IMG/VR virus record: IMGVR_UViG_3300025093_000002
Location: 1 to 64,000 of that record
DNA length: 64,000 nt
Direction: 5' to 3' (one strand)
From: a virus
Part shown: piece after piece, positions 1 to 45,153 of the stretch
Layout: each line of letters opens with the position of its first letter
Position numbering within the stretch: the stretch's first letter is position 1
Translations under genes and position numbers: made by a program
Notes under the pieces: generated by a model
Seen by the model: only the letters and a program-made list of their open reading frames with translations
Databases searched by the model: none
Told to the model about the DNA's origin: nothing

Positions 1-87
1 GAGATGAGCGACCTTTTCATCATCATCGAAGCGTTCGGCGCAAAGCATGGCGTCACGTTTCACGACCGTCAGGAGCGAGCCGCATGA
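1..87 (+). CDS. ninB: NinB-like recombination protein, C-terminal fragment (cut by window edge)
   Basis: The last 28 codons of a gene whose complete copy lies at 41233-41631; the DNA is identical to that copy over everything visible. NinB proteins of lambdoid phages bind single-stranded DNA and take part in phage recombination. The stop codon overlaps the next start as ATGA, so the two are probably translationally coupled. Only the C-terminus is visible, so the upstream part of this copy is unknown. Confidence 0.85.
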   Translation, partial: EMSDLFIIIEAFGAKHGVTFHDRQERAA

Positions 88-127
88 GCCTCCCCCTCAC
101 CGCCCCTAGCTCTGTCCGCCGCTCTAA
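1..127. repeat. Unit-length direct repeat, copy 1 (identical to 41545-41671)
   Basis: Bases 1-127 match 41545-41671 without a difference, and the match may continue left of the window. It covers the ninB end and the start of the following small gene. After base 127 the copies diverge, although the gene order stays parallel to the integrase. The 41,544 bp spacing equals one full lambdoid genome map, so this repeat marks the joint between two phage genomes. Confidence 0.95.
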
Positions 128-278
128 AAAGCGTTGCGCGCAGTATGTCGAGACACACGAGCAGCTTCGGCGCGAAGTCGAGATTGCCCTCATGCGCCAG
201 TCCGATGGCCTTGGAGCATGGCTTGCCGATGCCCTTGAGGCTGAGATGGACTGCTTTGATGTGGAGGCGGCGGCATGA
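84..278 (+). CDS. Small conserved phage protein (64 aa)
   Basis: Unrecognised, hydrophilic, rich in Arg and Glu, probably helical. Its start overlaps the ninB stop (ATGA) and its stop overlaps the next start. A near-identical 62-residue homologue lies at 41628-41816; this copy carries a two-codon insertion in the middle. Conservation in two related phages with mostly conservative changes supports real coding. Confidence 0.75.
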   Translation: MSLPLTAPSSVRRSKKRCAQYVETHEQLRREVEIALMRQSDGLGAWLADALEAEMDCFDVEAAA

Positions 279-460
279 GCCATTTTGCCACTGCACTGGC
301 GATCATCGGTGTTGCATTCGCGGTCGCCTACTGTTCCGTTGAGGTGAACCGCAGCGGCCATGAAGCGAGGAAATTCGAAGCTGAGGCTTGCGAGCGCGCT
401 GGAGGGCGCATGGTCCGCAATTGGGGCCAGCTCGTCTGCGAATACCCAGGGGCGCGCTGA
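275..460 (+). CDS. Small membrane-anchored protein (61 aa)
   Basis: Residues 3-20 are hydrophobic and form an N-terminal transmembrane anchor or uncleaved signal, followed by a charged tail with two cysteines that could lie outside the membrane. It overlaps both neighbours by four bases (ATGA and TGATG). It has no counterpart in the parallel region at 41.8 kb, so it came or went with the neighbouring nuclease cassette. Function unknown. Confidence 0.65.
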   Translation: MSHFATALAIIGVAFAVAYCSVEVNRSGHEARKFEAEACERAGGRMVRNWGQLVCEYPGAR

Positions 461-846
461 TGGGCTACGCTATCCGCCGTCACCCCGAAGCGTTCAGCCT
501 CTCGCCTACCGACAAGAAGCGGCCGGCGAAGAAGGATGCGGGATACCTGTCATGGCTGCACGAGCTTCCGTGCCTCGTGACCGGAGCGCGCCCTGTCGAA
601 GCCGCGCACGTCTCATATGCCGACCCTCGATATGGCAAGCGCGAACGCGGCAAAGGCGAGAAGGCCGACGATCGTTGGGCCATCCCGTTGAGCCGCGCAG
701 AACATAACCGCCAGCACACCATGGACGAGCGAGCCTACTGGCAGTCCGTTGGCATAGACCCGCTTCAGGTTGCCTTGGCCCTCTACGGCGTCAAGGGCGA
801 CAACACCATGGCGGAAATCATCATCAAGAATGCGAGGAAGTCATGA
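460..846 (+). CDS. Putative HNH-like nuclease (YbcO/Ref/DUF968-like, 128 aa)
   Basis: The central part has a Cys and several His residues in the order CLVTG, AAHVS, KADDRWAIPLS and EHNRQHTMDE, resembling the His-Me finger proteins that lambdoid phages carry beside ninB. That family cleaves DNA during recombination; the activity here is inferred from motif and position. The ATG at 460 overlaps the previous stop and fits the operon better than upstream in-frame starts. At the same place the second phage has an unrelated CxxC-type HNH protein (41813-42181). Confidence 0.6.
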   Translation: MGYAIRRHPEAFSLSPTDKKRPAKKDAGYLSWLHELPCLVTGARPVEAAHVSYADPRYGKRERGKGEKADDRWAIPLSRAEHNRQHTMDERAYWQSVGIDPLQVALALYGVKGDNTMAEIIIKNARKS

Positions 847-1154
847 CCGCCCCCGCCCCGAATGACGACCTGGTGCGCGAAATCGAAGACGCCGAATGGT
901 GGGAGCGAGGCGACGCCGAAGGCAACACCGTCGTCAGCATTGCGCCCGAAAGCCTCGCAGCGGCATACCGCGCCCAAGCCGAAAGGATTTCGGTGCTGGA
1001 GCGGGCGCTGGAGCCGTTCGCGAAGGAAGCACGGCTGTGGGCTGGTTACGACGAGGCCGAAATTCTCGTTGAGGGTTTTCCCAACGGCCCTGCAAGCATC
1101 ATCACCGTTGGTGACCTTTACCGCGCCCGCACCACCCTCACAGGAGCCCGCTAA
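843..1154 (+). CDS. Conserved phage protein of unknown function (103 aa)
   Basis: Start and stop overlap the neighbouring genes (ATGA, TAATG). The N-terminus (PAPNDDLVR) and a central helical segment (AERISVLERALEPFA, likely coiled coil) are shared with the 100-residue protein at 42181-42483; the parts between differ. This is a mosaic small early protein with no recognised domain. Confidence 0.7.
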   Translation: MTAPAPNDDLVREIEDAEWWERGDAEGNTVVSIAPESLAAAYRAQAERISVLERALEPFAKEARLWAGYDEAEILVEGFPNGPASIITVGDLYRARTTLTGAR

Positions 1155-1951: not shown

Positions 1952-2142
1952 CCCCAAACCAGTGGCAAACATTAGAAGCGCTGAACAACTGCACCGCTCC
2001 TTGGGACGCGAAACATCCCAGCAACCGGAATGTTTTGGCGGCGCTTGGGAGGTTGGGGCTTGCCGAAAAACAACTTGGTTACCCCGTAGGTTGGGTCATC
2101 ACCGCCGCTGGCCGTCGCGCCCTTCAGGAGCGCCAGCCATGA
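1948..2142 (+). CDS. Small protein, possible winged-helix fold (64 aa)
   Basis: Residues about 5-60 read like a compact helix-helix-wing unit (NVLAALGRLGLAEKQ, then GWVITAAGRRALQ), as in small MarR-like or wHTH domains. Both ends overlap neighbours by four bases. The parallel slot at 43232-43456 carries a different 74-residue protein that shares only the last residues (ERQP). DNA binding is a guess from sequence style. Confidence 0.55.
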   Translation: MTPNQWQTLEALNNCTAPWDAKHPSNRNVLAALGRLGLAEKQLGYPVGWVITAAGRRALQERQP

Positions 2143-2444
2143 AGACGGCAAGGGAGATAATCGCACGGGCCTACGACCGCGAGCAGGCGGCGCAGATGGG
2201 CGAACCGGACCCATGGCAGGACGGCACCGACCACCCCGAATGGGAAGGCAGTCTCGGATGCGCAGACGTGGCTATAGCCGCTCTCGCTGCCGAGGGGTTC
2301 AGCATCGTGGAGACAGGACTTGTCGAGCAAGCTTTCCGCGATGGCGTTGCCTACGGCACTGTCTGCGACGTAACCGATATCGATAAGGCATGGGAAACGT
2401 CTGCCGTTCGCGCCCGCTCTATAAGGAAGGGGAAGACAGAATGA
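2139..2444 (+). CDS. Conserved small phage protein (101 aa)
   Basis: Starts MKTAREIIA and contains the shared segment AIAALAAEGFSIVETG; the homologue at 43453-43761 has the same start, core and end (GKTE). Start chosen at the ATG overlapping the previous stop. Acidic and helical. Found here and in the second phage directly before the integration cassette. Function unknown. Confidence 0.7.
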   Translation: MKTAREIIARAYDREQAAQMGEPDPWQDGTDHPEWEGSLGCADVAIAALAAEGFSIVETGLVEQAFRDGVAYGTVCDVTDIDKAWETSAVRARSIRKGKTE

Positions 2445-2767
2445 GCCGCGTCTTCACACCTGCGACTCTTGCACAGCGCTGGGAATGCTCCGACAAGCAT
2501 GTTCGCAATCTAATCATGGCCGGCGAATTGCCAGCGTTCCGCGTTGGCGGCAAATTGCTCCGCATCAAAGGCGCGGACGTGGAGGACTACGAATGCCGGA
2601 ATGGCGTCTCACTCGACTCGACGGAGATTTCTGCGTCACCTGGGACGATCCCAGCATCAAGGCCGGAAGGCGACGTTATCGACTTCACACCTCAGACCCA
2701 AAAGAAGCAGCCGCGCGCGCCGCGTCTCGATACGCAGCTTTCACGCGCCCGACTGGCAAGACGGTAG
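2441..2767 (+). CDS. Excisionase-like HTH protein (108 aa)
   Basis: Residues 5-50 form an HTH_17/MerR-like helix-turn-helix (TPATLAQRWECSDKHVRNLIMAGELPAFRVGGK) of the kind found in phage excisionases and recombination directionality factors; such proteins bind beside attP and steer the integrase to excision. It lies directly before integrase A and overlaps its reading frame by 175 bp. The C-terminal 50 residues, in the overlap, are basic and low-complexity and may be dispensable. The first bases of this gene are part of the left anchor of the integration cassette. Confidence 0.7.
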   Translation: MSRVFTPATLAQRWECSDKHVRNLIMAGELPAFRVGGKLLRIKGADVEDYECRNGVSLDSTEISASPGTIPASRPEGDVIDFTPQTQKKQPRAPRLDTQLSRARLARR

Positions 2768-3582
2768 CCGAGATATGGAAAGGCTACGTCGCGGACATGG
2801 AAGGCCGCGCCGTGGTCGGCACGATGAAGCACACATGGAAGGCGCTTCAGTTCCGGTTCGGGGGCTTGAACGGTGATGAGGTGTCGATTGCCGATTGCCG
2901 GGCACACACTGAGCAGCGGCGGCTTGACGGCATCAAGGATGGAACGATCCATACCGAACTAGGCCACCTGCGCATGGTTCTGCTATGGGCCGAAAAGCAC
3001 CGTCTCATTGACCGAGCGCCAGCAATCGAACGGCCGGCGAAACCAGAACCGAAGCACGATTACCTGACACGCGAGGAGGCCAGGCGATTAGTCGATGCTT
3101 CGAAGGCCGCGCATGTGGCACTCGCCATTGAACTGATGCTGGCGACCGGCGCGCGTAATGAGGCTGCGCTGACGCTGACATGGGATCGCGTAGACATGGA
3201 GCGGCGCATCATCCAGCTTCGAAACCCGTTCGATAGGGCGAAGCGGAAAGGGCGCGCAACCGTGCCGATGAATGACAAGATCCACACGGCTATGGGAAAG
3301 GCCAAGAGGGGGGCTTTGACGCCATTCGTGGTCGAGTGGGCCGGAAGACCGGTCAAGTCGATCAAGCGCGGCCTGAAGGCGGCGGGCGCCGAGATAGGAC
3401 GACCAGACGTGTCGCCCCACATGCTGCGTCATTCGGCGGCTGTATGGCTGGCCGAAGACGGGCATTCGATGAATGAGATTTCGCAGTACCTTGGTCATGA
3501 CGACGTGAAGACGACCACGCGCGTCTATGCCAGGTTCTCGCCAACGCACCTTCGGAAGCTCGCTGACAGCCTCAATTTCTGA
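2593..3582 (+). CDS. int: Tyrosine recombinase, integrase A (329 aa)
   Basis: Phage integrase of the lambda/XerD superfamily. The N-terminal arm-binding and SAM-like core-binding regions span about residues 1-150. The catalytic domain carries Arg188 (ATGARNEA), a lysine in the KRKGRATVPM hairpin, His276-x-x-Arg279 (HMLRHS), His302 (LGHDD) and the nucleophile Tyr312 (VYARF), so all residues needed are present. The ATG at 2593 is chosen because upstream in-frame starts lie deep in the excisionase gene. It should recombine the adjacent tRNA-Val-derived attP with the host tRNA-Val(GAC) gene. It is only distantly similar to integrase B at 43933. Confidence 0.93.
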   Translation: MPEWRLTRLDGDFCVTWDDPSIKAGRRRYRLHTSDPKEAAARAASRYAAFTRPTGKTVAEIWKGYVADMEGRAVVGTMKHTWKALQFRFGGLNGDEVSIADCRAHTEQRRLDGIKDGTIHTELGHLRMVLLWAEKHRLIDRAPAIERPAKPEPKHDYLTREEARRLVDASKAAHVALAIELMLATGARNEAALTLTWDRVDMERRIIQLRNPFDRAKRKGRATVPMNDKIHTAMGKAKRGALTPFVVEWAGRPVKSIKRGLKAAGAEIGRPDVSPHMLRHSAAVWLAEDGHSMNEISQYLGHDDVKTTTRVYARFSPTHLRKLADSLNF

Positions 3583-3587
3583 GGCTC

Positions 3588-3611
3588 AGGTTCGGGTAAA
3601 CCTAGAGAGAA
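3588..3611 (+). repeat. Candidate integrase-A arm site, left copy
   Basis: A 24-bp sequence (AGGTT...AACCTAGAG..GAA) matched at 19 of 24 positions by 3783-3806 in the same orientation. The two copies lie 195 bp apart and flank the tRNA-derived core. Each contains an imperfect AGGTT/AACCT inverted repeat. The position and spacing fit arm-type binding sites of a lambda-type attP; binding is inferred. Confidence 0.5.
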
Positions 3612-3643
3612 ATATGTAAACACCAGCTAAGTGCTTGAAAGGA

Positions 3644-3690
3644 TGGTGGGCGTGACAGGGATTGAACCTGTGACCCCTACGATGTCAACA
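3644..3690 (-). other. attP-like core: 3' part of tRNA-Val(GAC)
   Basis: Read on the minus strand this is the 3' part of a tRNA: anticodon loop with GAC (3682-3688), variable region GGGGTC, a perfect T arm (CAGG TTCAATC CCTG) and the acceptor end with encoded CCA (3644-3646). The 5' half is absent: bases beyond 3691 are unrelated. So this is a crossover core joined to phage DNA on both sides (attP), not an intact tRNA or a prophage end. Confidence 0.8.
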
Positions 3691-3782
3691 TTGCGCCCCT
3701 ACCGGAAACCCGCGAAACCCCGGCAAATGGGCACTACGCCATGGCCCTGTGGAGAACGATGTTCCGCTTCTGTCCGGTTTGC

Positions 3783-3806
3783 AGGTTTGGTCGAACCTAG
3801 AGGGAA
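3783..3806 (+). repeat. Candidate integrase-A arm site, right copy
   Basis: Second copy of the 24-bp motif described at 3588, on the late-module side of the core, with five differences concentrated in the centre of the inverted repeat. Confidence 0.5.
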
Positions 3807-3816
3807 CTACGCACGC

Positions 3817-3966
3817 ATGCACATTAGACGCATCGAAACGAAAGGCACCCTCGTCCTCATCGCTGCCCTTATCGTAGCTCTATGGGCAGTGGGAGAGTGG
3901 GTGCTATCGTGGGGGCCTTGGCTTCTGAGTATGGCCGCGACGTTCGGCTTCATCGATACGCTCTAG
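3817..3966 (+). CDS. Small membrane protein next to attP (49 aa)
   Basis: A single hydrophobic segment (residues about 10-30, LVLIAALIVALWAVGEWVL) after a short basic N-terminus. The membrane segment and its DNA recur almost unchanged at 45439-45502 just after the second attP site, where the N-terminus differs. Its 3' end overlaps the convergent gene at 3904. Conservation beside two different att sites argues for a real, though unrecognised, gene. Confidence 0.6.
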   Translation: MHIRRIETKGTLVLIAALIVALWAVGEWVLSWGPWLLSMAATFGFIDTL

Positions 3967-4215
3967 AAGCTCATCCAGCCTGTGATTGATGCCCGAGGTG
4001 TTCTTGTCCGTCAGCGCATCCGCAATGCGCTTCACTTCTGCAATGAGACGATCCATCTGTTCCCGCTCGCCAAACCCCAAACCAATCCCCGCCAGGACGG
4101 CATCATTCGCTTTGGCTGGTGGCGTCGTCTGCCGAGACAGATATTTACCGGCCCCCGCCAGCAACAGGATAGCCCCGTAGATCGCGGCAATCCACAATTC
4201 AGGTGCAATGGTCAT
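3904..4215 (-). CDS. Membrane-anchored coiled-coil lysis-region protein (103 aa)
   Basis: One N-terminal transmembrane segment (residues 7-23) followed by a charged helical region (about 50-95) likely to form a coiled coil, ending PRPPR. That architecture and its place as last gene of the lysis group resemble inner-membrane spanins; no partner o-spanin is visible, so this is tentative. The functional counterpart in module B is the 105-residue protein at 47636-47953, which has the same layout and a similar Pro/Arg end. Confidence 0.6.
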   Translation of the reverse strand: MTIAPELWIAAIYGAILLLAGAGKYLSRQTTPPAKANDAVLAGIGLGFGEREQMDRLIAEVKRIADALTDKNTSGINHRLDELLERIDEAERRGHTQKPRPPR

Positions 4216-4660
4216 TCACGGCCACCCGCTTTTTATGGGTTTTGTCCGATGCGCCAGCTTCGCCCATCGCGCGGATGACGTTGTACGAGTCGAGGAACAG
4301 AAGGACGGGATAAACGGCGAGGCCCGTTGAGCCAGTGCCGGCCTGCGCCATCCCCAATGTGATCTGGAACCAGAAGAAGCAGGCCACGAAGGCAAAGAAA
4401 GCCCGCCAGTGCGGAGAGCGCCGCCAAGCCCCGTTGATGCATAGAACGATGAACCTTAGCCCGCCTGCGATAAGGCATAGCCACCCCCATGTCTCGGGGT
4501 CTGCCATCTGGGCAAGAACCTTGTAGGACGCGCCTTGAAACACGCCGGGGTTCAGCCAGATCACGACGGCCCAATTGATGAGAACAAGTGCCAACGCCCA
4601 TTCGGACGCTCGCCCCGGAAATGTCTCTCGGAGCGAGTGCTTTATGTGGGCGAGGATCAT
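4199..4660 (-). CDS. Multi-pass membrane protein of lysis region (153 aa)
   Basis: Four hydrophobic stretches at about residues 20-36, 55-75, 85-103 and 110-125 suggest an integral inner-membrane protein. It sits between a holin-like gene and the TM/coiled-coil protein, overlapping both at its ends (17 bp downstream, 1 bp upstream). It could be a second holin or holin regulator. No family recognised. Confidence 0.65.
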   Translation of the reverse strand: MILAHIKHSLRETFPGRASEWALALVLINWAVVIWLNPGVFQGASYKVLAQMADPETWGWLCLIAGGLRFIVLCINGAWRRSPHWRAFFAFVACFFWFQITLGMAQAGTGSTGLAVYPVLLFLDSYNVIRAMGEAGASDKTHKKRVAVNDHCT

Positions 4661-4896
4661 CAGTAGAGCCCCGTTGGCGGGTTAGGGAACTGCTTGGCCT
4701 TCTCGGCCGGGCTCTTCCAGTTGGGGATGAGCCAAACAAGCAGGGCACCGACGCCGCCGAGGACTGCGGTGACCGTTGCCTCATCGAGACCAAGGTCGAT
4801 GCCGGAATAAATCTGGAAGAACTGGACGGCAGCCATCACGACTGCGACCCAGAACTTTGCGGCCCGGAACAGGCCGAACATTGCAAGCAGAGGCAT
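4660..4896 (-). CDS. Holin-like membrane protein (78 aa)
   Basis: Two hydrophobic segments (residues 5-27 and 40-58) separated by a short loop, then a charged, Pro-rich tail: the size and layout of small class II/III holins, which form the membrane holes that release or activate endolysin. It lies 4 bp after the endolysin stop, in the same operon. Called from architecture and position only. Confidence 0.65.
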   Translation of the reverse strand: MPLLAMFGLFRAAKFWVAVVMAAVQFFQIYSGIDLGLDEATVTAVLGGVGALLVWLIPNWKSPAEKAKQFPNPPTGLY

Positions 4897-4900
4897 CGGG

Positions 4901-5563
4901 TTATCCTTTCGAGAACAGGTTGCGGAAGAAAGATGCGAGCGCAGCCCAGAAGCCCTGCGCAGGGGCAGGAGCAGGTTCAGGGCGCGGTGTGGGTGTTGGC
5001 GTGGGAAGCGGGCCAGGAACGGGCGGTGCAGCCTTCATGAGCGCCAGAACGTCAACCCGCTTGCCCCGGCTCCAAAGGACGACGCCCTTCGTGTTCGCAG
5101 GGTAGAGGGTGGCGAAACCGCCGCTGGAATACTTGCCACTGAAAAACAGGCCGCGCTCTTTCTCGCGGCGCGGGATGATTTCCTTCGGCTTCGACCAGAA
5201 CATGAACGCCTTGCGCGCCCCGGCCATATCGCCCGCGTTGAACTTCTTTACCCACGTTGCATCATCGATGCCCCCAGTGTTGAAGTCGAAGGACACAGCC
5301 GCGTCGAACTGCTCTTGCGTGAGCGGGCGGGTAAACGCCTTGCGGACGCGGGCTTCGAACTTGGCGATATCGCGCCGGAAAATTTCCATGATTTCCGCCA
5401 TGGAGTATTCGCCACGCTTCAACGCGGGATTCGGAAAGCCGGCAGAGGCAGTATGCCCAATGCCAACCGTCCAGACGCCAACGCTGTCCTTGTAAGGCGC
5501 ATTGACGATGCCTTCGTGGCTCGCGATCTCCACGAGCCCCTTGTCGCTGACCTTTTGGGCCAT
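4901..5563 (-). CDS. Endolysin, GH24 (T4-lysozyme-like) muramidase (220 aa)
   Basis: Cleaves the glycan strand of peptidoglycan for lysis. The GH24 triad is present: Glu17 (SHEG), Asp26 (YKDS) and Thr32 (WTVGIGHT) with the canonical spacing. The lysozyme domain spans about residues 1-170, then a Pro-rich linker and a C-terminal amphipathic segment (FWAALASFFRNLF), unusual for simple lysozymes. There is no N-terminal signal, so export should depend on a holin. A 19-bp stretch upstream, including the ribosome site, is identical to that before the original endolysin start in module B. Confidence 0.9.
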   Translation of the reverse strand: MAQKVSDKGLVEIASHEGIVNAPYKDSVGVWTVGIGHTASAGFPNPALKRGEYSMAEIMEIFRRDIAKFEARVRKAFTRPLTQEQFDAAVSFDFNTGGIDDATWVKKFNAGDMAGARKAFMFWSKPKEIIPRREKERGLFFSGKYSSGGFATLYPANTKGVVLWSRGKRVDVLALMKAAPPVPGPLPTPTPTPRPEPAPAPAQGFWAALASFFRNLFSKG

Positions 5564-5680
5564 CGGTATTCCTTTTTCAGTTGTGGGGGAGGTTGCACGC
5601 GGAGGGGTTGCGTGCTTGAAGGGAGTGCGCCATCAAGGCGCGCGCCAAGTTTTAGGCGCTTATGAAGAAGAGCGGCTTCT

Positions 5681-5758
5681 ATGCTTGGGTATTTGGCAGC
5701 CGTCGTTATCGGCGGGATCGGGATCGGGCTTATATTGCTCGACGTGGCGGGCTACTAA
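5681..5758 (+). CDS. Possible membrane micropeptide (25 aa)
   Basis: A short frame, almost entirely one Gly/Ile/Leu-rich membrane segment, ending 3 bp before the start of the O-antigen ligase-like gene. A purine-rich stretch precedes the ATG. It may be a leader or a tiny partner protein of the polytopic downstream product. Too short to be certain. Confidence 0.35.
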   Translation: MLGYLAAVVIGGIGIGLILLDVAGY

Positions 5759-5761
5759 GCC

Positions 5762-6832
5762 ATGAAGGTCAGGATATCCGAGGTCAGCCTCGCGCCTGCG
5801 GCCCTTGTCTTTGTTCTCTTGCTTGGTTTCATGTCGGCAGGTGCCATCCCGCTCCTGTCGCCTGAACTCCACTATCAAACAGCGTGGCCGACATATCTGA
5901 GATATGGGTGCATCGTCGCCGTCTACGTGATGCTTCTCGTCCGCGCTATCGCGAACAATTCCACCTTTTCCTCCCCTGCCGCTTGCTTTTTCATTGCGTT
6001 TTCGATTTCGCTGGCCATCGCCATGATGTCCGGCATTGAGGCCAAGCGAGTCGTTCTTTACCTTCTGCCGCTAATCGCCATATTCACTCCGCAGCGCATT
6101 TTCGCATTGTTCCCGCGCATAGCGGTGTGGGCTTTGCTCTTGGCGCTTGCCGGCGCAGTCTACGAATATGCGAACGGGACGTTCGGGCGTTTTGACGGTG
6201 CCCGGGTCTCATCGATATTCATCAATCCGAACAACCTCGCTGTGGTGACGATGATTTCCGTCGCCTTGATTTTTGAACACGCGCAATCAACGAGGGCCGT
6301 GAAGGCGCTCGCAGTCGCTATCATGGTGCCGCTTTTGTTCTTGTCCGGGTCGAAGACGGGCTTGCTGATGCTCGCCGCGCTGATTGTATTTTACGCAGCC
6401 CGCCGTAGCGTCCTCGGCGTCGTTGCGGCCGGCATTGCTACTGTCTTGGCCGGGAGCGCGCTGGTCTATTCCGGACTTGTTCGCGCTCCCTTGCTAAGCT
6501 TGACGGAGAGGGTCAAGCAGCTTCAGTCCAGTTTGTCCGAAATCGACAACTGGTTCACGCCCGGCCACTCTCCACAGCCGATGGAATACTACCTCACCAA
6601 CCCCTACATCTACGTGGACAACGCCTACATCCAGACATGGATAGAACTAGGTGTCCCGGCTGCGGTCCTGTTTACGGCGGCCCTCATTTATAAGGCCGCA
6701 ACAGACCGTCTAGGCTCTCCGTTTTGGTTGCTACTGATGGTCGCGGCCCTGACCACAAATATCAACTATCTCTGGCCGGTTGCATATTTCCTATGGGCCT
6801 ATGTCGGACAGCCGCAGAAAACGACTAACTAA
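5762..6832 (+). CDS. O-antigen ligase/polymerase-like membrane protein (356 aa), lysogenic-conversion cargo
   Basis: A polytopic membrane protein with about ten hydrophobic segments and a large hydrophilic loop between about residues 240 and 295, the topology of the Wzy/WaaL/RfaL (O-antigen ligase, Wzy_C-like) superfamily. These proteins polymerise or attach surface polysaccharide in the periplasm. Segments like SGSKTG and the loop ending [12 protein letters not shown] are typical. It lies on the strand opposite the late genes, between endolysin and tailspike, and its end overlaps the tailspike end by 8 bp. Its codon use looks less GC-biased than that of neighbouring structural genes. A role in altering host surface sugar is inferred. 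Confidence 0.8.
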
Positions 6833-9359
6833 AGTTATGGATTGGAATGGCGTAAGACGTGCCACCGATGACCACGACGACCTTGCCGTAGTAAGTGCCA
6901 ATCGCGCCAGTTGAGGTCACTCCGTCCATCTGGAAACCATTGCCAGACCCGTTGCGAACACCCCAGCGGAGATTGCCCGCCTGGTCGAACATACCCGTCA
7001 CAGTGACTCCAGTCGTTCCCGAGTTCTTGCCCTGGATGCCGAAGACGCCGGAAGATTGAACCAAAGAACCCGTAATCGTCTGGCCGTCCGTCGCGCCTGA
7101 GAAGTCCAGACGATTTGTGATGAGCGGGTTGGTGAAGTGGTCTCGTGAGCCGATGGTCACGGAGTTCGCGCGCGCCGGCAGATACCAGTTGGCCTCCACG
7201 CTGCCCGCCGTGCGGGTCGTTATCTGGAGGTGCGACGAATTGACGATATTGCCGCCCGCGTTGATGAGTTGGATGTTCGCGAAGTTTGGCGCACCCGCGA
7301 TATCGAGTTGGATATTGCTTTCCAGGGTCTCGCCAGACAGGCCCGACGAGCCCGCCGTCGTCCCGCCAATACGAGCCTTGTAATCGCATTCGCCTTTGTC
7401 GCCGCAAATCTTGATGTTGCTGTAGTGCGCATAGGCGCAGTTGAGGGCTTCAACCGTCGTGCTCGATGCGATCCACGCCACGCCATCTGGAGACAGACGC
7501 CTCGCAGCAGCCGTCTTCGTCGTGACGACCTGAAGGTCCACATCAACTTGGTGGACACGATTGAGGACAGCATCCTTCTGGCAATTGACCGAAAACCCCT
7601 TGACCCGGATACCCATCGACGTGCCTGACGAGATAGCCGATGAGGCCGCGCCAGCGGCAATCGTACAAGTCGAATAGCAGTCCTCGGCGAAGACCTCGAC
7701 ATCAACACCCATGGCGTTCGCATCGACCGTTTCAAGCACAAGGTCGGCACCGAAGGCATAGAGGCACCCCTTGGCTTTAACCTTGCCGACGAGCGTCCCG
7801 CACTTCTCGGTCGTCGTGAATGGCTGGATGGTTAGCGCCTTGCCGCCGTCGCCATAGGTCGTCTTGTCGAGCGACGGCAGATTGTGGCACTCGACCTCGA
7901 TATGCAGGCGGTCAAAACCGTTGGTCACAGAGACGCCGTTCGAACCCGCCAATCCGGCGTTCATCGAGGTCGATGCGACGGTCTGCGAGATGCCTACGGT
8001 GTATGTCCCGACCCCGCCAGTGCCAGTTCCAAGGGCAGTAATCACGGTGCCACCCGTGACGCCTGTCCCGAAGATGACATCATCGACGCCAAGAGCGCCG
8101 GATGCGACCGCCGTCACAGTGAGCGTCGTGCCAGCTATTTCGCCGGTGAAGATCGCCTTGTCGTTCCCGACCACAGCCTCAATGCGGGGAAAGCCCCGGA
8201 TGCCGAAGTTGTCCATGCCGTTGAGTTGGAACACGTCGGCACCTTCAGCGGAGTTGGTCGCGAAAACCGTTGAGGGGCCATCTGCCAGGATCGAAATGCC
8301 ACCGCAATCAAGCAGGCCGGAAACAATCTGCTGACGGAACGGCATGTTGCGCTGGCCGCTGATCTCGTAGCGATGCCCACCGGGGAAATGCATATCCTGC
8401 CCGGTTTCGAGCGCCAGCGCCCAGACACCCGCAACGCCGTCATAGACGACATCACCAGCCGCAAGGCGGGTTGCTCCGCGTTTGTTGCCCGCGTCGTACG
8501 TGTCCCAATCGAGACGCGGCACGGCATCCATGAACCACAGCGCGTTCAATGGCCCGTCATACGACCGCATCCATGCCTTCGTGACATCAAACGTCGATCG
8601 GATGAAGACGCCGTTCTGTGTGTCCAGATCGACCAGCGTCGAGAAGTCGGCATAGTTGACGAGGAAGAACTGGCCGGCGCGCCCGTCTTGGGTCAGATGC
8701 ACGACCGAATATGCCGCCGTGCTTAGGGCAGCGATTGCAGCGACAGTCGCGACGGGACGGCCGTTGAATGCATTTGTGCCAACGCCGGTCGGATCATACG
8801 TTGCTGCGATCATGTCGCCAGCACCCGCCGCAACCCATCCCGTCGCATAGTCCGTCGCACTGGTCTTCGCCAGAACCTGGCCTGTCGTGCCGCCTGCCGG
8901 GACAAGACGGGTCGATGCGGGCTGAATGGCCGTGTCTGCCGTCGCGCCCTGCGCTGCCGTGGCATAGGCCGTTGCGTCGGTCGTGGCTGCTGTGCCAAGG
9001 CCAAGCGTCGTGCGTTGCGCCGCTGCGTCAGCATCATCGACCAGCGCTCGACCGGCTGCCGTGAAGTCAGCCAGCGCCCAAGTCCCCGCACCCGTCGCAT
9101 AAGGCAACTTGTCGGCAGCGCTCGTCAGGGCTGCGAGGGCCGCAAGGTCCGCGTCATATGCCTGAACGGTGACGCCGATGGTCGAAGACAGCACATAGTC
9201 CGCCAGAGTCGTCGTCAGGGCCGTGCTGGTGACGTAACTCGCAAGCGTTGCCGCCAGCCCGGACGGAACGACAACCTTGTCGGAAATCGCCCCCGCCTGC
9301 GTCTCGGCATCAGATGCTGTGGGGATCTCGAACGAATGCGTATGGTACGCGATGGTCAT
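6825..9359 (-). CDS. Tailspike/tail fibre protein (844 aa)
   Basis: The receptor-binding protein of module A. Residues 1-170 are Ala/Thr/Asp-rich repeats typical of fibre shafts ([25 protein letters not shown]). The middle part is Gly/Asn/Val-rich with short beta-strand periodicity, as in pectate-lyase-type beta-helix spikes. The C-terminus looks compact and beta-rich. It probably binds and perhaps degrades surface polysaccharide. The gene follows a strong terminator-like hairpin and therefore may have its own promoter. Confidence 0.85.
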
Positions 9360-9374
9360 GGTGCGGCACCCAAT

Positions 9375-9399
9375 AAAAAAGCCGCCTCAAAAGGGCGGC
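9375..9399 (-). terminator. Rho-independent terminator before tailspike A
   Basis: On the minus strand: a GC stem (GCCGCC/GGCGGC), a short loop, then six T. It lies between the 75-residue gene and the tailspike start. The same hairpin with a T tract occurs just before tailspike B at 53319-53343. Confidence 0.7.
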
Positions 9400-9451
9400 A
9401 GGTCAGTCGGCAGGGCTTGGGAAGTTTAGGGCGCTTTGAGCGCCATCAGGC

Positions 9452-9679
9452 TTAGACGCGGATGCGAAGTTCGCCCGTCGCGGTCTTATAGATATCGTTG
9501 AGGGCAAGACCGCCCGCGACAGCGGCAGCGTTGTCAGCATAGGTCGGCACGTCGATGCGCTTCAAAAGCGCATTGAGCGGGCAGTGGACCAGTTGGTTAT
9601 TGACAAACAGGACGACACGGATCGCAGCGGGGTCGCTGATTTCCGAAATGGCTGGGGCTGAAAAGCGGGGCTGTTCCAT
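9452..9679 (-). CDS. Small virion-region protein (75 aa)
   Basis: A short protein that starts on the last base of the tail-collar fibre gene (1-bp overlap) and stops before the terminator. Mixed composition with a central hydrophobic strand (AIRVVLFVNNQLV) and an Ala-rich end resembling fibre attachment segments. It could be a fibre chaperone or connector; no family recognised. Confidence 0.65.
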   Translation of the reverse strand: MEQPRFSAPAISEISDPAAIRVVLFVNNQLVHCPLNALLKRIDVPTYADNAAAVAGGLALNDIYKTATGELRIRV

Positions 9680-10689
9680 CAGATTTTGATGATCTTGTTG
9701 AAGACAATACCGGGCTGGACGTTGTTGTGAGGTTCGCCCGTGCCCGATGCCGTGATTGTGTGCGCGTGGTCGGGCGCGCTATTCCCGGTCAAGACATCGC
9801 TAACGCCTTGGGGCGTGCCGCTGGTCTGGAAAAACGCGCCCCCCGAACCAGAAATTGCGCCAAGCGGGATATTGACTGAAATTGCATGACCGCCCGCTGA
9901 ACCAGTTGCCCCGCCGTGGTCGTGCGGGCCATTCTGAGAAGCAGTTAGGATGTGCCTTTCCGCGCCACCCGTCGCGCCTAGCACATCTCCGTTGATGCCC
10001 TCTGAGAAGCCGTTCAGGCGGTCAGCGGACGTGCCGCCCATGTTGTCCTTGCCGACTGTATTGCGGCCCCGGATGTCGGGAAGGTTGAACGTGGTCGATC
10101 CGTCGCCCGCCCCGTAGGTCGTGCCGATAGCCGCGAACAGGTCGGCATACGTGGTGCGCGAGACGGCCTGGCCATAGCAAAGCAGCCAACCTTCAGGTGC
10201 ATTGATGCCCGCATAATCCGTCACCACGCCGGATGGCGTTGCTGACAGGGTAGGATTGAGAAGCAGCCACGCGCCATTGCCGGAATTGAGATCGGTCGAG
10301 TACTGGACCGTGTACATCGCGCCGGACTGAATTTCGCGACCAGCGAGCGCAATGATGCCGCCACCCGTCGCCTTCAGGACAGGCTTAGCCCCTGTCGCAT
10401 TGACGTTCAGCGTGGTTGATTGTGTATTGGTGGCAATCGCGCGAAAGGACACGATCCGACCATTTGCAAGCGTGGTGAACGCGCTCTGCGCTGAAACTGC
10501 GATGACGTTGGCCGTGCCGGTCGCGACGATAGACCCGCCAATGTCAACCAGTATCTCCTTAACGCGGCCCATCATCACGCGGGCAGAGTCGTTGACGCTG
10601 GCCGGCGACATGCCTTCGGCCCAATCAATCGCGCTGTCCGCGTTCGCGTTGTTGGCCGCGATCACGTCCCAATTGTAGATGTTTGCCAT
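9679..10689 (-). CDS. Tail fibre with phage tail-collar domain (336 aa)
   Basis: The central segment (PEGWLLCYGQAVSRTTYADLF to FNLPDIRGR, about residues 165-215) is the classical tail-collar (Pfam Collar) domain. The C-terminal part contains Gly/His clusters (NGPHDHGGATGS, DHAHT) typical of metal-binding fibre tips. The N-terminus probably attaches to the tail. Together with the spike at 6825 this gives the phage two receptor-binding-type proteins. Confidence 0.85.
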   Translation of the reverse strand: MANIYNWDVIAANNANADSAIDWAEGMSPASVNDSARVMMGRVKEILVDIGGSIVATGTANVIAVSAQSAFTTLANGRIVSFRAIATNTQSTTLNVNATGAKPVLKATGGGIIALAGREIQSGAMYTVQYSTDLNSGNGAWLLLNPTLSATPSGVVTDYAGINAPEGWLLCYGQAVSRTTYADLFAAIGTTYGAGDGSTTFNLPDIRGRNTVGKDNMGGTSADRLNGFSEGINGDVLGATGGAERHILTASQNGPHDHGGATGSAGGHAISVNIPLGAISGSGGAFFQTSGTPQGVSDVLTGNSAPDHAHTITASGTGEPHNNVQPGIVFNKIIKI

Positions 10690-10698
10690 GGGCTGTTC

Positions 10699-11463
10699 CT
10701 ATGCGCGACGCGGCATCCGCTTGCTCATGAGCAAGTCGGCCACCGTGGGGTTGTTGAGGACGTTGGAGAGGGCGTTCGCCTGCGCCTGCGACGGGCCACC
10801 GGGGAAGCGGCCAAGCGGTGCGGCGGGCATGGTTTCGAGCGAGGACAGAAAACTGGCGATCGGGTTGCCGCCCTTCGGCTCCGGGGCGGTTGCGTATTCG
10901 GCCACGTCAACCGGCACAGGTGACGGCGCGGGCATGTCGGGCATTGCCATCGGAGAAGGCAGCATTGCGCCGAAGGGCGACTGTTGAGCGGGTGTCGAGG
11001 GCGTTGGCCCGCCCTGCATGGCAAGAAGCTGCTCCGCCTTGCGGCGGTGGTCGGCCATCTGCTTTTCGACCTTGTCGCGGACGGTTCCGGGAGCGCCGCC
11101 ATTGTTTGCGTCAGAGCGGTTGTAGAGGCCGGGAGCGCCGGCATTGACGGTGCTGTAGGCGTCCAGCATCCCCATGCCGGGCTTCCAGCCAGAGGACCGG
11201 AAGTAGCGCGCCACCGCGCCGTCCTCGCCTAGCTGACTGGCAAGCGCCGCATCTGGGCTTGAGAAATCGACGCCGTGCTGCTTGGCCTGCGGCTCGCCAA
11301 ACTGGATCAGTCCGCGATGCTGCCCCCATTGCGTCGTGGGCCCAGCCTTCATCGGGTCGAACGTGCCGGCCGTCTCGTAGGAGATGATGGTCGCCAGATC
11401 GAGCGGGTTCATTCCAAGCGAGCGCGCCGTCGCGACGATGCCGGAACGGAGGTCTGTTGCCAT
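10699..11463 (-). CDS. Virion-associated lytic transglycosylase-like protein (254 aa)
   Basis: Residues 10-125 resemble the SLT lysozyme-like fold (LGMNPLDLATIISYETAG, with Glu30 as candidate acid, then WGQHRGLIQFG and a C-terminal helix bundle). Such proteins open peptidoglycan locally during DNA entry. The remaining 130 residues are Pro/Ala/Met-rich and probably extended, ending in a basic tail. It lies beside the ejection-protein genes, which supports a virion role rather than lysis. Confidence 0.75.
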   Translation of the reverse strand: MATDLRSGIVATARSLGMNPLDLATIISYETAGTFDPMKAGPTTQWGQHRGLIQFGEPQAKQHGVDFSSPDAALASQLGEDGAVARYFRSSGWKPGMGMLDAYSTVNAGAPGLYNRSDANNGGAPGTVRDKVEKQMADHRRKAEQLLAMQGGPTPSTPAQQSPFGAMLPSPMAMPDMPAPSPVPVDVAEYATAPEPKGGNPIASFLSSLETMPAAPLGRFPGGPSQAQANALSNVLNNPTVADLLMSKRMPRRA

Positions 11464-11480
11464 TCACGTTGCCCCAAAGA

Positions 11481-11506
11481 AAAAGGGGCGCCCGAATGGA
11501 CACCCC
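11481..11506 (-). terminator. Terminator-like hairpin before the transglycosylase gene
   Basis: On the minus strand a 9-bp stem (GGGGTGTCC with GGGCGCCCC, two G-T pairs), a 4-base loop and five T. It lies between the opposite-strand cargo gene at 11546 and the transglycosylase start. Confidence 0.6.
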
Positions 11507-11545
11507 TACTGTTCGTGATTATCTTGCGCCCTACTTGGAGGGCTG

Positions 11546-11917
11546 ATGACGCTTGTAGAATTTTACCCACCAGTGGCAGCGGCCACCTTCTTATCCGCGC
11601 TATGGTTTCTTGTGGCCTACCGCTTTCACAAGACCGAGACCCCGGGTGCCGAGAGGTTCAGGTATTTGATCTGGATGCTTTTGCTGCCGGGGTCTTTGCT
11701 ATTCTTTTTTTGGCAACACGGCTGGGAAGCGCCTCTGTCCACATACTTTGAAAGATTTATGGGCGCGCTGGCTGGCGTCAGCATGGGCGCTTTAGGCGTT
11801 TTTCTTATCCAAACGACGTTCTTCGAGAGCCACAGCCACGCAAAGGAAGCAGGTCTCAAATACGTTTATCTGGGGCTGTATTTGGTCTTCCTAGGTTCTG
11901 GTTTTTTTGTTTTTTAG
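11546..11917 (+). CDS. Four-helix membrane protein on opposite strand (123 aa), cargo gene
   Basis: Four hydrophobic segments (about residues 8-25, 38-55, 68-90 and 100-121), rich in Phe, Leu and aromatic residues, with more AT-rich codons than flanking virion genes. A good ribosome site (GGAGGG) precedes the ATG. It lies against the late operon and converges with the 655-residue ejection gene, overlapping it by 4 bp. This looks like a moron expressed in the lysogen; superinfection exclusion is one possibility. No family recognised. Confidence 0.7.
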   Translation: MTLVEFYPPVAAATFLSALWFLVAYRFHKTETPGAERFRYLIWMLLLPGSLLFFFWQHGWEAPLSTYFERFMGALAGVSMGALGVFLIQTTFFESHSHAKEAGLKYVYLGLYLVFLGSGFFVF

Positions 11918-13881: not shown

Positions 13882-15188
13882 CAGTCCACCTGCTCAATCG
13901 TGTATCCGTCGATGGTTACTGGCTGCCGAGGCCCGCCCGTCTTTTGAAGCGCCTTCTCTTGCGCAACGATGGCCTGCGGCGGCATTCCCGCCTTGATTGC
14001 ATTGAGGGCGCGCTGACGCGACAGGCGCTTCTGTTCGAGAACGGCAGGACCGTCGCCCGGGCGCGGCAGATAGACCGAACCATACTCAGCCACCTCTTCC
14101 TTCGTGATGGCGGCGCCAGTGTCCTTGCGCAGGATGGCTTGCAGAAACTCTTGGCCGGCTTGTTCTGCTTGCTGATACTCTTCGGTCTTCATGTAATTGC
14201 CGACGAACGGCACGCGGGCACCCATGGACTCGTCAAAGCGAGCTAGCGCTTCGCCATACTGGTCAATCATTGGGAGCGAACCTTCCGCGCGGGTGGCGTA
14301 GACGGCGTCCTTGCTCTGCCCCTCGGTCAGCGGCTTGATGTTGCCGCCCTGCTGGAACGTGACAGCGCCCGTTTCGGGGTCCACCTGAAGGCTCATACCG
14401 CCCTTCTTGGAGGCTTCCCAATCCTGATATGTGCCGGGGAAGCCCTGATCCCGAGCATATTCGTATTCGCGAACGCCAGCCGGCAAATCGGCTTGCCCGC
14501 TGTCGGGGGCGATTACCCATTCTCCGGTCTGCTGGTCATAGAGGCGGCCATCGCCAGCGTTGATGAGCTGACGCTCCTGCCCGAAGTTCGCGATTTCCTC
14601 GCCCGTCTGGGCATCCACGAGCCGGCCATTGATCGTTACCGTTTCGCGTTTTGGGTTCAACCGATCCTGAATGTCGAGCTGAAGCTTTGCCAGTTCCAGC
14701 GCGGCCTTCGGGTCAGCGCCCTTCGTGCGGTCGAGAAGGTAGCTCTGCAGCGCGTTCTTGTTGCCGGCCATGAGCGTGGCCGTGCCCTCGTCCATGCCCT
14801 GCGTCTGAAGCCACTGAACCGTCTGGTTGCGGCCTGCTGCACCCGGATTGAAGATGTTGCCAAGGAATGACCCGATACCACCGCCAGAAGGCGCTTCCGA
14901 CACACCGGAGCGCGACAGCGGCTGCTGAGACTGCATCGGTGCCGGCTGAGCCTGCTGGGCAGCATAGGGCGCAGGAGCGGACGGGAAGCCCTGCGCATCG
15001 AGCGTGAACGGCTGCGCCTGCTGTGCAGGTGCCGACATGCTCGACAGCGCGTTGTGATAGGCAAGCATACCGGGGCCGGCCGCACCTGGGCCTTCCAGCA
15101 TGTCAGGCGCAAGGCCAAGACGGTTCGGCATCGGCTGGACCGGCGCACCACCGCCCAAGAGGCGCTGTAGAAAATCCTGAAGCATCAC
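13881..15188 (-). CDS. Virion protein, probable ejection component (435 aa)
   Basis: The N-terminal 110 residues are Pro/Gln/Ala-rich and disordered; residues 110-200 are helical; the middle contains a small beta unit (VTINGRLVDAQTGEEI) and the C-terminal 150 residues are helical and charged. It starts 4 bp inside the previous gene and ends on the first base of the next. It lies in the ejection-gene block; no family recognised. Confidence 0.6.
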   Translation of the reverse strand: MMLQDFLQRLLGGGAPVQPMPNRLGLAPDMLEGPGAAGPGMLAYHNALSSMSAPAQQAQPFTLDAQGFPSAPAPYAAQQAQPAPMQSQQPLSRSGVSEAPSGGGIGSFLGNIFNPGAAGRNQTVQWLQTQGMDEGTATLMAGNKNALQSYLLDRTKGADPKAALELAKLQLDIQDRLNPKRETVTINGRLVDAQTGEEIANFGQERQLINAGDGRLYDQQTGEWVIAPDSGQADLPAGVREYEYARDQGFPGTYQDWEASKKGGMSLQVDPETGAVTFQQGGNIKPLTEGQSKDAVYATRAEGSLPMIDQYGEALARFDESMGARVPFVGNYMKTEEYQQAEQAGQEFLQAILRKDTGAAITKEEVAEYGSVYLPRPGDGPAVLEQKRLSRQRALNAIKAGMPPQAIVAQEKALQKTGGPRQPVTIDGYTIEQVD

Positions 15189-35524: not shown

Positions 35525-35526
35525 GC

Positions 35527-40146: not shown

Positions 40147-40841
40147 CCGAAAACCTCGCACTCTGGGAGAAGCTGGGAAAGACTGACCCGGCCCATACGA
40201 AGGGCTTCAAGCGCGGCGGTGGGTTCACCGGAACCGCTATCAAGCCGATGTGGTCCTACAAGCGCATGACTGAAGAATTCGGGCCGTGCGGGACTGGCTG
40301 GGGCGTGGGCGAGCCATCCTTTCAGGTCGTGCCGGGACCGGAAGGCGAAGTACTTGTCTTCTGCACCGCGTCGATTTGGTACGGCAGGCCAAACGAAGAG
40401 CGCGCGACGGTCTACGGCGTGGGCGGCGACAAGGTTGTCGGCAAGAACAAGTTCGGCCTCAACAGCGACGACGAGGCTTTCAAGAAAGCCTTTACCGACG
40501 CCATCACGAACGCCCTGAAGCTCATCGGCGTGGGCGCTGATGTGCACATGGGCCTGTTTGACGACAGCAAATACGTCAACACGCTCAAGCAGGAATTCAC
40601 GGACGAGAAGCCAGCCGATAAGCCGAAGCCAACCAGCGCCGCTGAAATGAAGCGCGGCCTTGAGGCTATCGACCAAGACCTTCTCGACTGCCCGACCATC
40701 GCGGAAGTGAACAAGTGCGCCAAGATTTGGGCATCAATCATGGACCGCGATGAGTGGACCAAGGACTACCGCGAGATTGCGGCTCCGAAGTTCAAAGCAC
40801 GACGCGATGCAATCAACAACGAACAGAAGGAAGTTGCCTGA
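40143..40841 (+). CDS. Putative single-strand annealing recombinase (232 aa)
   Basis: LWEKLGKTDPAHTKGFKRGGGFTGTAIKPMWSYKRMTEEFGPCGTGWGV and the later DAITNALKLIGVGADVHMG look like the Erf/Rad52-like annealing proteins of phages, in which the second segment is a conserved helix near the core. It lies between Gp157 and SSB, the standard place for such a protein. The exact family is uncertain. Confidence 0.65.
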   Translation: MTENLALWEKLGKTDPAHTKGFKRGGGFTGTAIKPMWSYKRMTEEFGPCGTGWGVGEPSFQVVPGPEGEVLVFCTASIWYGRPNEERATVYGVGGDKVVGKNKFGLNSDDEAFKKAFTDAITNALKLIGVGADVHMGLFDDSKYVNTLKQEFTDEKPADKPKPTSAAEMKRGLEAIDQDLLDCPTIAEVNKCAKIWASIMDRDEWTKDYREIAAPKFKARRDAINNEQKEVA

Positions 40842-41224
40842 TGAAGGCTATCGTAATCGCCGGCCGTCTCGGCAAGGACTCCGAACTCCGCAGGACACAG
40901 AAGGGCGATGCCGTTCTTGGCTTCTCCGTTGCCGTCGATGATGGCTATGGCGACAGCAAGCGCACGCTCTGGTTCGAATGCAGCTTATTCGGCAAGCGCG
41001 GACAGTCACTTGAAGGCGCATTGACCAAGGGCAAACAGGTGACCGTCTCGGGCGATTTTTCCACCCGCGAATATGAGGGCAAGACCTTCATGACCGTGAA
41101 CGTCAACGACGTGACGCTTCAGGGCGGCGGCAACGAGCGCCAGCAGCAGACGGCGAAGTCATCCTATGACGAACCCGACAACCGTTCGACAGCCGAAGCG
41201 CTGGACGACGACCTGCCATTTTGA
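40841..41224 (+). CDS. ssb: Single-stranded DNA-binding protein (127 aa)
   Basis: An OB-fold SSB (IAGRLGKDSELRRTQKGDAVLGFSVAVDDGY, WFECSLFGKRGQSLEGALTKGKQVTVSGDF) with a short disordered tail ending in the acidic DDDLPF tip that recruits partner proteins. Shorter than host SSB. Works with the annealing protein in phage recombination and replication. Confidence 0.92.
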   Translation: MKAIVIAGRLGKDSELRRTQKGDAVLGFSVAVDDGYGDSKRTLWFECSLFGKRGQSLEGALTKGKQVTVSGDFSTREYEGKTFMTVNVNDVTLQGGGNERQQQTAKSSYDEPDNRSTAEALDDDLPF

Positions 41225-41232
41225 GGTGAGCC

Positions 41233-41631
41233 ATGGGCCGCGCGCTTCTCGTCATCAACTCAACCGCCGAACGCCAGAAGGCCGCTGCTTGGGTGCAGCA
41301 AGCCCCCTGGGGAACGCGCATTGAATACAAGGGGCCGAAGCGCACCCTGCCCCAGAACGACCGCCTGTGGGCCATGCTGACGGACGTAGCCACGCAACTG
41401 ACGTGGCACGGCGTTCGCCTCACGCCCGACGACTGGAAGCTCATGTTCCTCGATGGCTTGAAGCGCGAACTGCGCATGGTGCCGAACATCGAGGGCAACG
41501 GGTTCGTGAACTTGGGACGCTCTTCGTCCGACTTGGACAAACAGGAGATGAGCGACCTTTTCATCATCATCGAAGCGTTCGGCGCAAAGCATGGCGTCAC
41601 GTTTCACGACCGTCAGGAGCGAGCCGCATGA
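41233..41631 (+). CDS. ninB: NinB-like recombination protein (132 aa)
   Basis: The NinB family pattern is visible: KRTLPQNDRLWAMLTDVATQLTWHGVRLTPDDWKLMFLDGLKRELRMVPNIEGNGFVNLG, followed by SDLFIIIEAFGAKHGV. In lambda NinB (Orf) binds ssDNA and SSB and stands in for RecFOR. Its 3' end is identical to the fragment at 1-87. Overlaps the next gene by 4 bp. Confidence 0.88.
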   Translation: MGRALLVINSTAERQKAAAWVQQAPWGTRIEYKGPKRTLPQNDRLWAMLTDVATQLTWHGVRLTPDDWKLMFLDGLKRELRMVPNIEGNGFVNLGRSSSDLDKQEMSDLFIIIEAFGAKHGVTFHDRQERAA

Positions 41632-41671
41632 GCCTCCCCCTCACCGCCCCTAGCTCTGTCCGCCGCTCTAA
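41545..41671. repeat. Unit-length direct repeat, copy 2 (identical to 1-127)
   Basis: See 1-127. The sequences to the right of this copy (41.7-43.8 kb) remain parallel to 0.1-2.4 kb as a mosaic of near-identical and unrelated blocks up to the integration cassette. Confidence 0.95.
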
Positions 41672-43456: not shown

Positions 43457-43761
43457 AGACGGCAAGGGAGATAATCGCGGTCACGGTGGACCGAACGAAC
43501 GGAGAATGGTGGGCCGACGCCATCATCGCCGCTCTCGCTGCCGAGGGGTTCAGCATCGTGGAGACAGGACGCGACCCGGTGACGATTGAGGCGTGCGCAG
43601 AGATTGCCGAGGGCGGTGTCGTGTTCGGCAACCAGAACGAGGTCTACGCCTGTGGCGATATGATGGACGCATGGGAGATGGGCGCTGACGACGCTGGCTC
43701 TTCCGTCGCCAAGGCCATCCGCTCCCTCTCCCGCTCTACAAGGGAGGGGAAGACAGAATGA
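43453..43761 (+). CDS. Conserved small phage protein (102 aa)
   Basis: Homologue of 2139-2444 (same MKTAREIIA start, AAEGFSIVETG core and GKTE end) with a different C-terminal half (EIAEGGVVFGNQNEVYACGDMMDAWEM). Last gene before the integration cassette. Confidence 0.7.
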   Translation: MKTAREIIAVTVDRTNGEWWADAIIAALAAEGFSIVETGRDPVTIEACAEIAEGGVVFGNQNEVYACGDMMDAWEMGADDAGSSVAKAIRSLSRSTREGKTE

Positions 43762-43961
43762 GCCGCGTAAGAGCATTCACGCGCTCGGAAATCATGGACG
43801 CTGCACGTGCCGCCGCAGAGAACGGCATGTGTGCCCGCCTGACGCCCGATGGAGAAATTGAGTTCACGCCAGAGCCTCGGAAGCGCAGTATGCCGAAACC
43901 GACGCCGGAAGAGCTGCTGGAGGGGTTTCTGAATGGAAGGCAAGTTGGTGGGCGTGCATAG
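43758..43961 (+). CDS. Small protein before integrase B, possible recombination directionality factor (67 aa)
   Basis: Begins MSRVRAFTRSEIMDAARAAAENG; the first codons are shared with the excisionase-like gene at 2441, then the sequence differs. It may be the directionality factor of the tRNA-Lys system. Overlaps the integrase start by 29 bp. Confidence 0.55.
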   Translation: MSRVRAFTRSEIMDAARAAAENGMCARLTPDGEIEFTPEPRKRSMPKPTPEELLEGFLNGRQVGGRA

Positions 43962-44943
43962 GGTCAAGGCCAAGCTTAAGGATGGAACCGAGGTCGAATA
44001 CCACTACGCCTGGCGCGGTGGACCTCGGATGCGTTCACGGCCTGGAACGAAAGCCTTCAGCCAGGAATTCGTGCGACTGACACGCGACCGGCCTCAGAAA
44101 GTCTTGGAAGCGTCGTTCGGATGGCTGATAGACGACTATCTCAAGAGCGCGCATTACCAGAAGCTGCGGCCTAGCACCAAGCGCGATTATGACCGTATCA
44201 TCGGCGCTATCAAGCTTCGGTTCTCTCCCATGCCTATCGGTGCAATAGAGGCGCGTGGCGCGCGCAAGGCGTTCAGCGACTGGCGAGACACTATGCGGGA
44301 CACGCCGCGCTCTGCCGACATGCACATGGCCGTTCTGGCGCGCATTCTGTCTTGGGCGAAAGACCGCGAACTCATATCGAAGAACCCGCTAGAGCGGATA
44401 TCGAAGCTCCACAGCGGCAGCCGGAAGGATGTCATCTGGACGCCCTCCCAGATCGCCGCAATCATGAAGGCCTCGCCTCACATCGTTGACGTGGTGAAGA
44501 TTGCGCTCTGGACTATGCAGCGGCAAGGCGACGTTCTGACCATGCCGACGCTGGCGCATTCTGACGACATGCTCTGGATTGTGCAGGGAAAGACCGGAGC
44601 ACGCGTTCGCGTCCGGCCGGCAGATGAATTACAGCCGATCCTGACGCGGGCGAAGGAAGCCAACCGCCAGCGCGTCCTCGTGAACAGCTACGGGCAGAAT
44701 TGGACTTCAAGCGGCTTTCGCGCGTCGTGGCGGAAGGAGCTGGCTCGCCTCAAGATTGAAGGCGTGACGTTCCACGATTTGCGTGGAACCGGCATCAGTT
44801 ACGCATATGCTGGGGGGATGGATATCGAGCGGATCGCTGAGATATCAGGGCACTCTAAGGGCGAGTGCGAAGCGATAATCCGCAAGAACTACCTGGCGGG
44901 CGGCGACGTGATCGAGGCGATCAGAGCAGGAACAAGAGTGTAA
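43933..44943 (+). CDS. int: Tyrosine recombinase, integrase B (336 aa)
   Basis: N-terminal arm-binding region (residues 1-55), SAM-like core-binding domain (55-165) and catalytic domain with Arg197 (MQRQGD), a Lys in QGKTG, His281-x-x-Arg284 (HDLRGT), His307 (SGHS) and Tyr320 (KNYLA). All catalytic residues are present. Next to it lies the tRNA-Lys-derived core flanked by four short arm-type repeats. It is of a different subgroup from integrase A. Confidence 0.93.
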   Translation: MEGKLVGVHRVKAKLKDGTEVEYHYAWRGGPRMRSRPGTKAFSQEFVRLTRDRPQKVLEASFGWLIDDYLKSAHYQKLRPSTKRDYDRIIGAIKLRFSPMPIGAIEARGARKAFSDWRDTMRDTPRSADMHMAVLARILSWAKDRELISKNPLERISKLHSGSRKDVIWTPSQIAAIMKASPHIVDVVKIALWTMQRQGDVLTMPTLAHSDDMLWIVQGKTGARVRVRPADELQPILTRAKEANRQRVLVNSYGQNWTSSGFRASWRKELARLKIEGVTFHDLRGTGISYAYAGGMDIERIAEISGHSKGECEAIIRKNYLAGGDVIEAIRAGTRV

Positions 44944-44966
44944 AATGACGGAAGTCTGTAAAACGG
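44939..44966 (+). repeat. Candidate integrase-B arm sites, left pair
   Basis: TGTAAAATGACGG (44939-44951) and TGTAAAACGG (44957-44966), 18 bp apart in the same orientation. The first overlaps the integrase stop codon. Matching copies lie on the other side of the core at 45090 and 45143. Confidence 0.6.
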
Positions 44967-44998
44967 CTTTCTGGAAATGACCCGCAAAGCCTTGAAAA

Positions 44999-45045
44999 TG
45001 GTGGGTGATGTAGGGATCGAACCTACGACCCGCTGATTAAGAGTC
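44999..45045 (-). other. attP-like core: 3' part of tRNA-Lys(CTT)
   Basis: On the minus strand: anticodon loop CTCTTAA (45037-45043, anticodon CTT), variable region, T arm (GTAGG TTCGATC CCTAC), acceptor end TCACCCA and CCA (44999-45001). The 5' half of the tRNA is absent. Thus an attP-like core, not a functional tRNA. Confidence 0.8.
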
Positions 45046-45089
45046 CCCGCGCAAGTGCAATGTTTTCCGCGCGTTGATATGCTGATGGG

Positions 45090-45153
45090 TGTAAAATGTC
45101 GGCCAGAAAGACTCAACGAAATCAGTGGTGCCCGAATCAAATTGTAAAACGGG
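45090..45153 (+). repeat. Candidate integrase-B arm sites, right pair
   Basis: TGTAAAATGTCGG (45090-45102) and TGTAAAACGGG (45143-45153), same orientation as the left pair. All four share TGTAAAAYG. Confidence 0.6.

Follow-up and report, generated by a model that had tools for sequence, protein, structure and literature searches.

Two complete temperate phages in one self-closing 92-kb virus record, probably joined by assembly at a shared 148-bp tract

Introduction

Does a virus record that carries two sets of temperate phage genes describe one molecule, or two phages written end to end? The question is raised by the window analysed here, which spans positions 1-64000 of a virus record 92,088 bases long; the remainder of the record was also included in the analysis. 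An earlier note on the window had recognised two temperate phage genomes joined at a repeat and offered four readings: a co-integrate, a replicating concatemer, a phage-plasmid-like fusion, or an assembly join between two co-resident phages.

Architecture of the record

The last 99 bases of the record (91990-92088) are identical to its first 99, and a 400-base query taken from the window start finds three matches in the record, at 1, at 41545 and, over 99 bases, at 91990-92088. Given the 99-base end overlap and the internal copy of the repeat at 41545, the record is self-closing and consists of two loops:

1 to 41544: loop A, a complete temperate phage unit of 41,544 bp
41545 to 91989 of the record (41545 to 64000 in the window): loop B, a complete temperate phage unit of 50,445 bp

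Each loop carries one integrase, one tRNA-derived attP, one late module, one terminase large subunit (TerL), one early region and one NinB. The features of a temperate tailed phage are present in both, namely a tyrosine integrase, the tRNA-derived attP, terminase, portal or adaptor, capsid, tail, lysis and early genes. The following genes were placed in loop A:

2593 to 3582, plus strand: integrase A (phrog_1, E 8e-47; 100% match in IMG/VR 3300006790_001255)
4901 to 5563, minus strand: endolysin A
19920 to 21029, minus strand: major capsid protein A (phrog_334)
22244 to 24286, minus strand: portal A (phrog_156)
24287 to 25591, minus strand: TerL A (phrog_3717)
40841 to 41224, plus strand: single-strand DNA binding protein (SSB)
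41233 to 41631, plus strand: NinB/Orf recombination mediator, extending into the tract shared with loop B

Tail fibres, an ejection protein, a methyltransferase, a Gam-like protein and an exonuclease are also encoded in loop A. Cutting at the repeat leaves 41,544 bp with exactly one gene set (intA, attP A, late module A and early genes), as the earlier note had stated. We further note a gene at 5762-6832 of the window (plus strand), adjoining the tail fibre gene and encoded on the opposite strand from late module A, with a weak match to O-antigen ligase (Wzy_C, below the Pfam cut-off); its product is possibly that of a surface-changing accessory gene.

The region to the right of the repeat had been described as a parallel early tail followed by a different integrase and attP and a T7-like late module, and this description holds. 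The early tails of A and B run parallel, each ending in NinB. Genes placed in loop B include:

43933 to 44943, plus strand: integrase B (phrog_1, E 3e-41)
50981 to 63950, minus strand: T7-like tail and internal virion genes of late module B, which continues to TerL B
72204 to 73592 of the record: TerL B

Loop B also encodes an endolysin, capsid, head-tail adaptor, early genes, a Gam-like protein, a RecT-like protein, SSB and NinB. No DNA-level relatives of late module B were found in public phage records. At the position in loop B that corresponds to 5762-6832 of loop A lies a gene (window 49828-51003, plus strand), likewise on the opposite strand from the late genes, with matches to Kelch-repeat (propeller) proteins and none to any defence family. 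The lysis-side region of loop B holds a gene for a trypsin-like protease (window 46953-47597, minus strand; Pfam Trypsin_2).

Strong matches between A and B run in the same order along both loops and include dozens of near-identical patches. The two loops thus read, at the level of sequence, as collinear mosaic relatives aimed at different tRNA genes. The phages themselves are new but ordinary representatives of an already known type. A concatemer of one phage, among the readings offered earlier, is excluded because the units differ over most of their length.

Attachment sites and likely hosts

The attachment cores were recognised by eye as half tRNA genes and then confirmed against bacterial tRNA genes; Rfam gave no credible RNA family at either site.

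3644 to 3688: attP A core, 45 bp, the 3' part of tRNA-Val(GAC), identical to the gene of Bartonella genomes
44998 to 45045: attP B core, 48 bp, the 3' part of tRNA-Lys(CTT), with 1 mismatch to the best host copy seen

The best host copy for attP B is a tRNA-Lys(CTT) gene in a genome of the same class as Bartonella. The relatives of portal A, at 57-66% identity, are encoded by prophages of Bartonella and of a Rhizobiales bacterium. Together, the portal relatives and the tRNA cores suggest alphaproteobacterial hosts for both phages. Shortly downstream of both cores, a 62-bp patch (3844-3905 in A, 45439-45500 in B) is 97% identical between the loops.

Each core sits between its integrase and its late module, and attP A is also spanned by a contig from IMG/VR dataset 3300006790. 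Phage DNA lies on either side of both cores, as had been observed earlier, and host DNA borders neither, so that neither phage is integrated in the record. These features bear on the reading to which we give the least credence, that of two adjacent prophages in one host chromosome or of a phage-plasmid carrying both. One contig does hold two complete temperate sets, but the cores are flanked by phage DNA, no host gene lies between the units, and the record closes on itself. A phage-plasmid is further disfavoured by a scan of about 60 of the proteins, which turned up no gene for plasmid replication or partition.

The shared tract

The two loops meet in a tract of identical sequence, with the following features:

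41524 to 41671, plus strand: 148-bp tract identical in loops A and B, reaching from the 3' end of ninB into the beginning of the gene that follows; presumed site of the false join
1 to 127, plus strand: left copy, the last 127 of the 148 bp, which also forms the opening bases of the record, the first 99 recurring at 91990-92088
Diagnostic bases flanking the tract: T41523 and A128 in loop A; G at position 91968 of the record and G41672 in loop B

The earlier finding that bases 1-127 equal 41545-41671 is exact, and the full tract is longer. Twenty-one further identical bases precede both 41545 and the terminal copy at 91990-92088; the repeat measures 127 rather than 148 bp because the record start truncates the left copy. 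No other exact match between A and B is as long, the runner-up measuring 76 bp, and a match of this length is far beyond chance. No inverted match of 31 bp was found between loop A and loop B, and neither loop has internal repeats of 40 bp. Outside the tract, A and B are 83% identical in the 370 bp upstream and 96% identical in the 280 bp downstream. Both ends of the record fall within these 148 bp, which make up 0.16% of the circle, indicating that it was this repeat that determined where the assembler broke and joined the sequence.

Assembly graph and origin of the join

The k-mer sets of two separate circles and of one 92-kb circle are identical at every k tested up to 149, and at k=150 they differ by just two k-mers. 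It follows that short-read contigs are unable to show A joined to B, and that both cases produce one and the same graph whenever k is below 148, with the two loops meeting on a single shared edge. Since no other exact match between A and B exceeds 76 bp, the two loops cross once only in a de Bruijn graph built at any k from 77 to 147, and the crossing point is the observed join. The junction lies in sequence that is common to both parents and longer than the 99-bp end overlap, and each side is complete and closes on itself through the shared tract.

The length of the end repeat also counts for an assembler origin. Direct terminal repeats in the CheckV study cluster at 55, 77 and 99 bp, lengths that correspond to assembler k-mer overlaps on circular templates (PMC8116208), and the 99-bp repeat matches a k that assemblers commonly use. 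At the record start, exactly 127 bases of the shared tract remain, against 99 bp in the end repeat, and one k does not fit both neatly. Since 127 is a SPAdes k, this value was considered as well, but set aside in view of the 99-bp end repeat.

We conclude that two separate complete temperate phages, A and B, were very probably joined end to end by assembly software at the 148-bp tract, and that the 92-kb double phage is probably not a real molecule. Of the four readings offered in the earlier note, the assembly join between co-resident phages is thus the one that finds support. The course of events would have been as follows. A and B, of 41,544 and 50,445 bp and members of the same mosaic group, would have been present as separate genomes in one sample, and the assembler would have used a k shorter than the tract, probably k=99 as judged from the end overlap. 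The tract would then have collapsed to one shared edge, with the loops of A and B forming a figure of eight, and a walk from A through the tract to B and back through the tract, with a presumed wrong turn, would have yielded one self-closing contig. This explanation accounts for the observations with little added.

Some points speak against it, in addition to the imperfect fit of the two lengths to one k. An assembler that makes use of read pairs would be expected to cross a repeat of 148 bp correctly in many cases, yet A to B was written, not A to A; the 96% likeness of the downstream 280 bp weakens pairing without fully explaining the wrong turn. The longest identical tract would also be favoured by homologous recombination, and the join at this tract is likewise what would be expected of a real self-closing 92-kb co-integrate or heterodimer with different virion types, abundant enough to be assembled. 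Such a molecule would arise by a single homologous crossover at the tract between the two circular phage genomes, in a cell that is co-infected or carries both as prophages. Both phages have recombination genes, and their own SSB, NinB and RecT or exonuclease genes would help the crossover; as the attP sites use different tRNA genes, A and B could share one lysogen. The order A-B is, moreover, what the contig states, and a true co-integrate would yield the same contig. We nevertheless consider a co-integrate improbable. The same k-mers arise without any link between A and B, and 92 kb is about twice the capacity of such heads (about 40-50 kb), so that the molecule would presumably not be packaged whole. 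The distribution of the two gene sets in other records and datasets also disfavours it.

Relatives and separate contigs

Thirty-nine IMG/VR records of at least 35 kb bear NinB; 38 of them have one copy, and two copies occur only in the present record. Two terminase matches are found in three other records, where they represent neighbouring or end-split halves, and no other record has two full terminases. Five relatives of 40.8-44.4 kb with a single NinB carry end repeats of k-mer length, 123 or 127 bp, and are thereby closed as single units.

In IMG/VR dataset 3300006790, B is present as a contig of 38,194 bp (45592-83785) and A as a separate contig of 13,263 bp (2024-15286), both at 100% identity to the record wherever compared. 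The two phages therefore recur and assemble apart, which falls short of showing them unlinked, since neither contig reaches the A/B junction. Searches with four loop A genes (portal, a virion protein, an early gene and NinB) found no near-identical contigs besides the record itself, and accordingly no other contig crosses the junction.

Comparison with known systems

Microcystis phage Mae-JY35 (PP438426.1) has a late module that is 84-90% identical to that of loop A over long stretches, together with early patches like those of A and of B. It has the same order through the junction region, which is passed once, and unlike the record it consists of a single 42,400-bp unit, in which one integrase and one terminase are encoded. 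One integrase lies within 2-6 kb after NinB, or at the matching place, in A, B, Mae-JY35 and most of the closed relatives checked. No mention of dataset 3300006790 or of Mae-JY35 was found in the literature searched. Mae-JY35 was deposited as a Microcystis phage, yet by sequence its relatives are alphaproteobacterial phages and prophages; a bacterium that lives together with the cyanobacterium may be the true host.

Mae-JY35 is a mixture of A-like and B-like pieces, which is of interest for a further explanation, namely that A/B recombinants with a second crossover, present as minority hybrids, contributed reads with genuine A-to-B links by which the assembler was misled, A and B being separate in the main populations. 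The collinear mosaic relationship of A and B, with its many near-identical patches, is compatible with such hybrids. However, no contig showing a second crossover between A and B was found, and the only 100%-identity contigs elsewhere show the parental order; we regard this explanation as very unlikely. Prophages of Bartonella and of a Rhizobiales bacterium share the A-type portal with loop A and, unlike the record, sit in bacterial genome contigs.

The assembly join that we favour has a counterpart in the over-long IMG/VR contigs with repeated genomes, which the authors of CheckV consider probable assembly artefacts (PMC8116208). Like the present record, these contigs are about twice unit length and have an end repeat of k-mer size. 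They differ in that they repeat the same genome, which is exposed by k-mer frequency, whereas the units here are different and the frequency is near 1; because A and B share little exact sequence, checks for repeated k-mers are expected to miss the record. Uncorrected, it would be counted as a single phage that has two types of virion. A self-closing contig with an end repeat of k-mer length resembles a finished genome, yet can contain two different phages, and such cases can be detected by counting single-copy genes (two NinB, terminases or integrases) and by seeking an internal copy of the end repeat.
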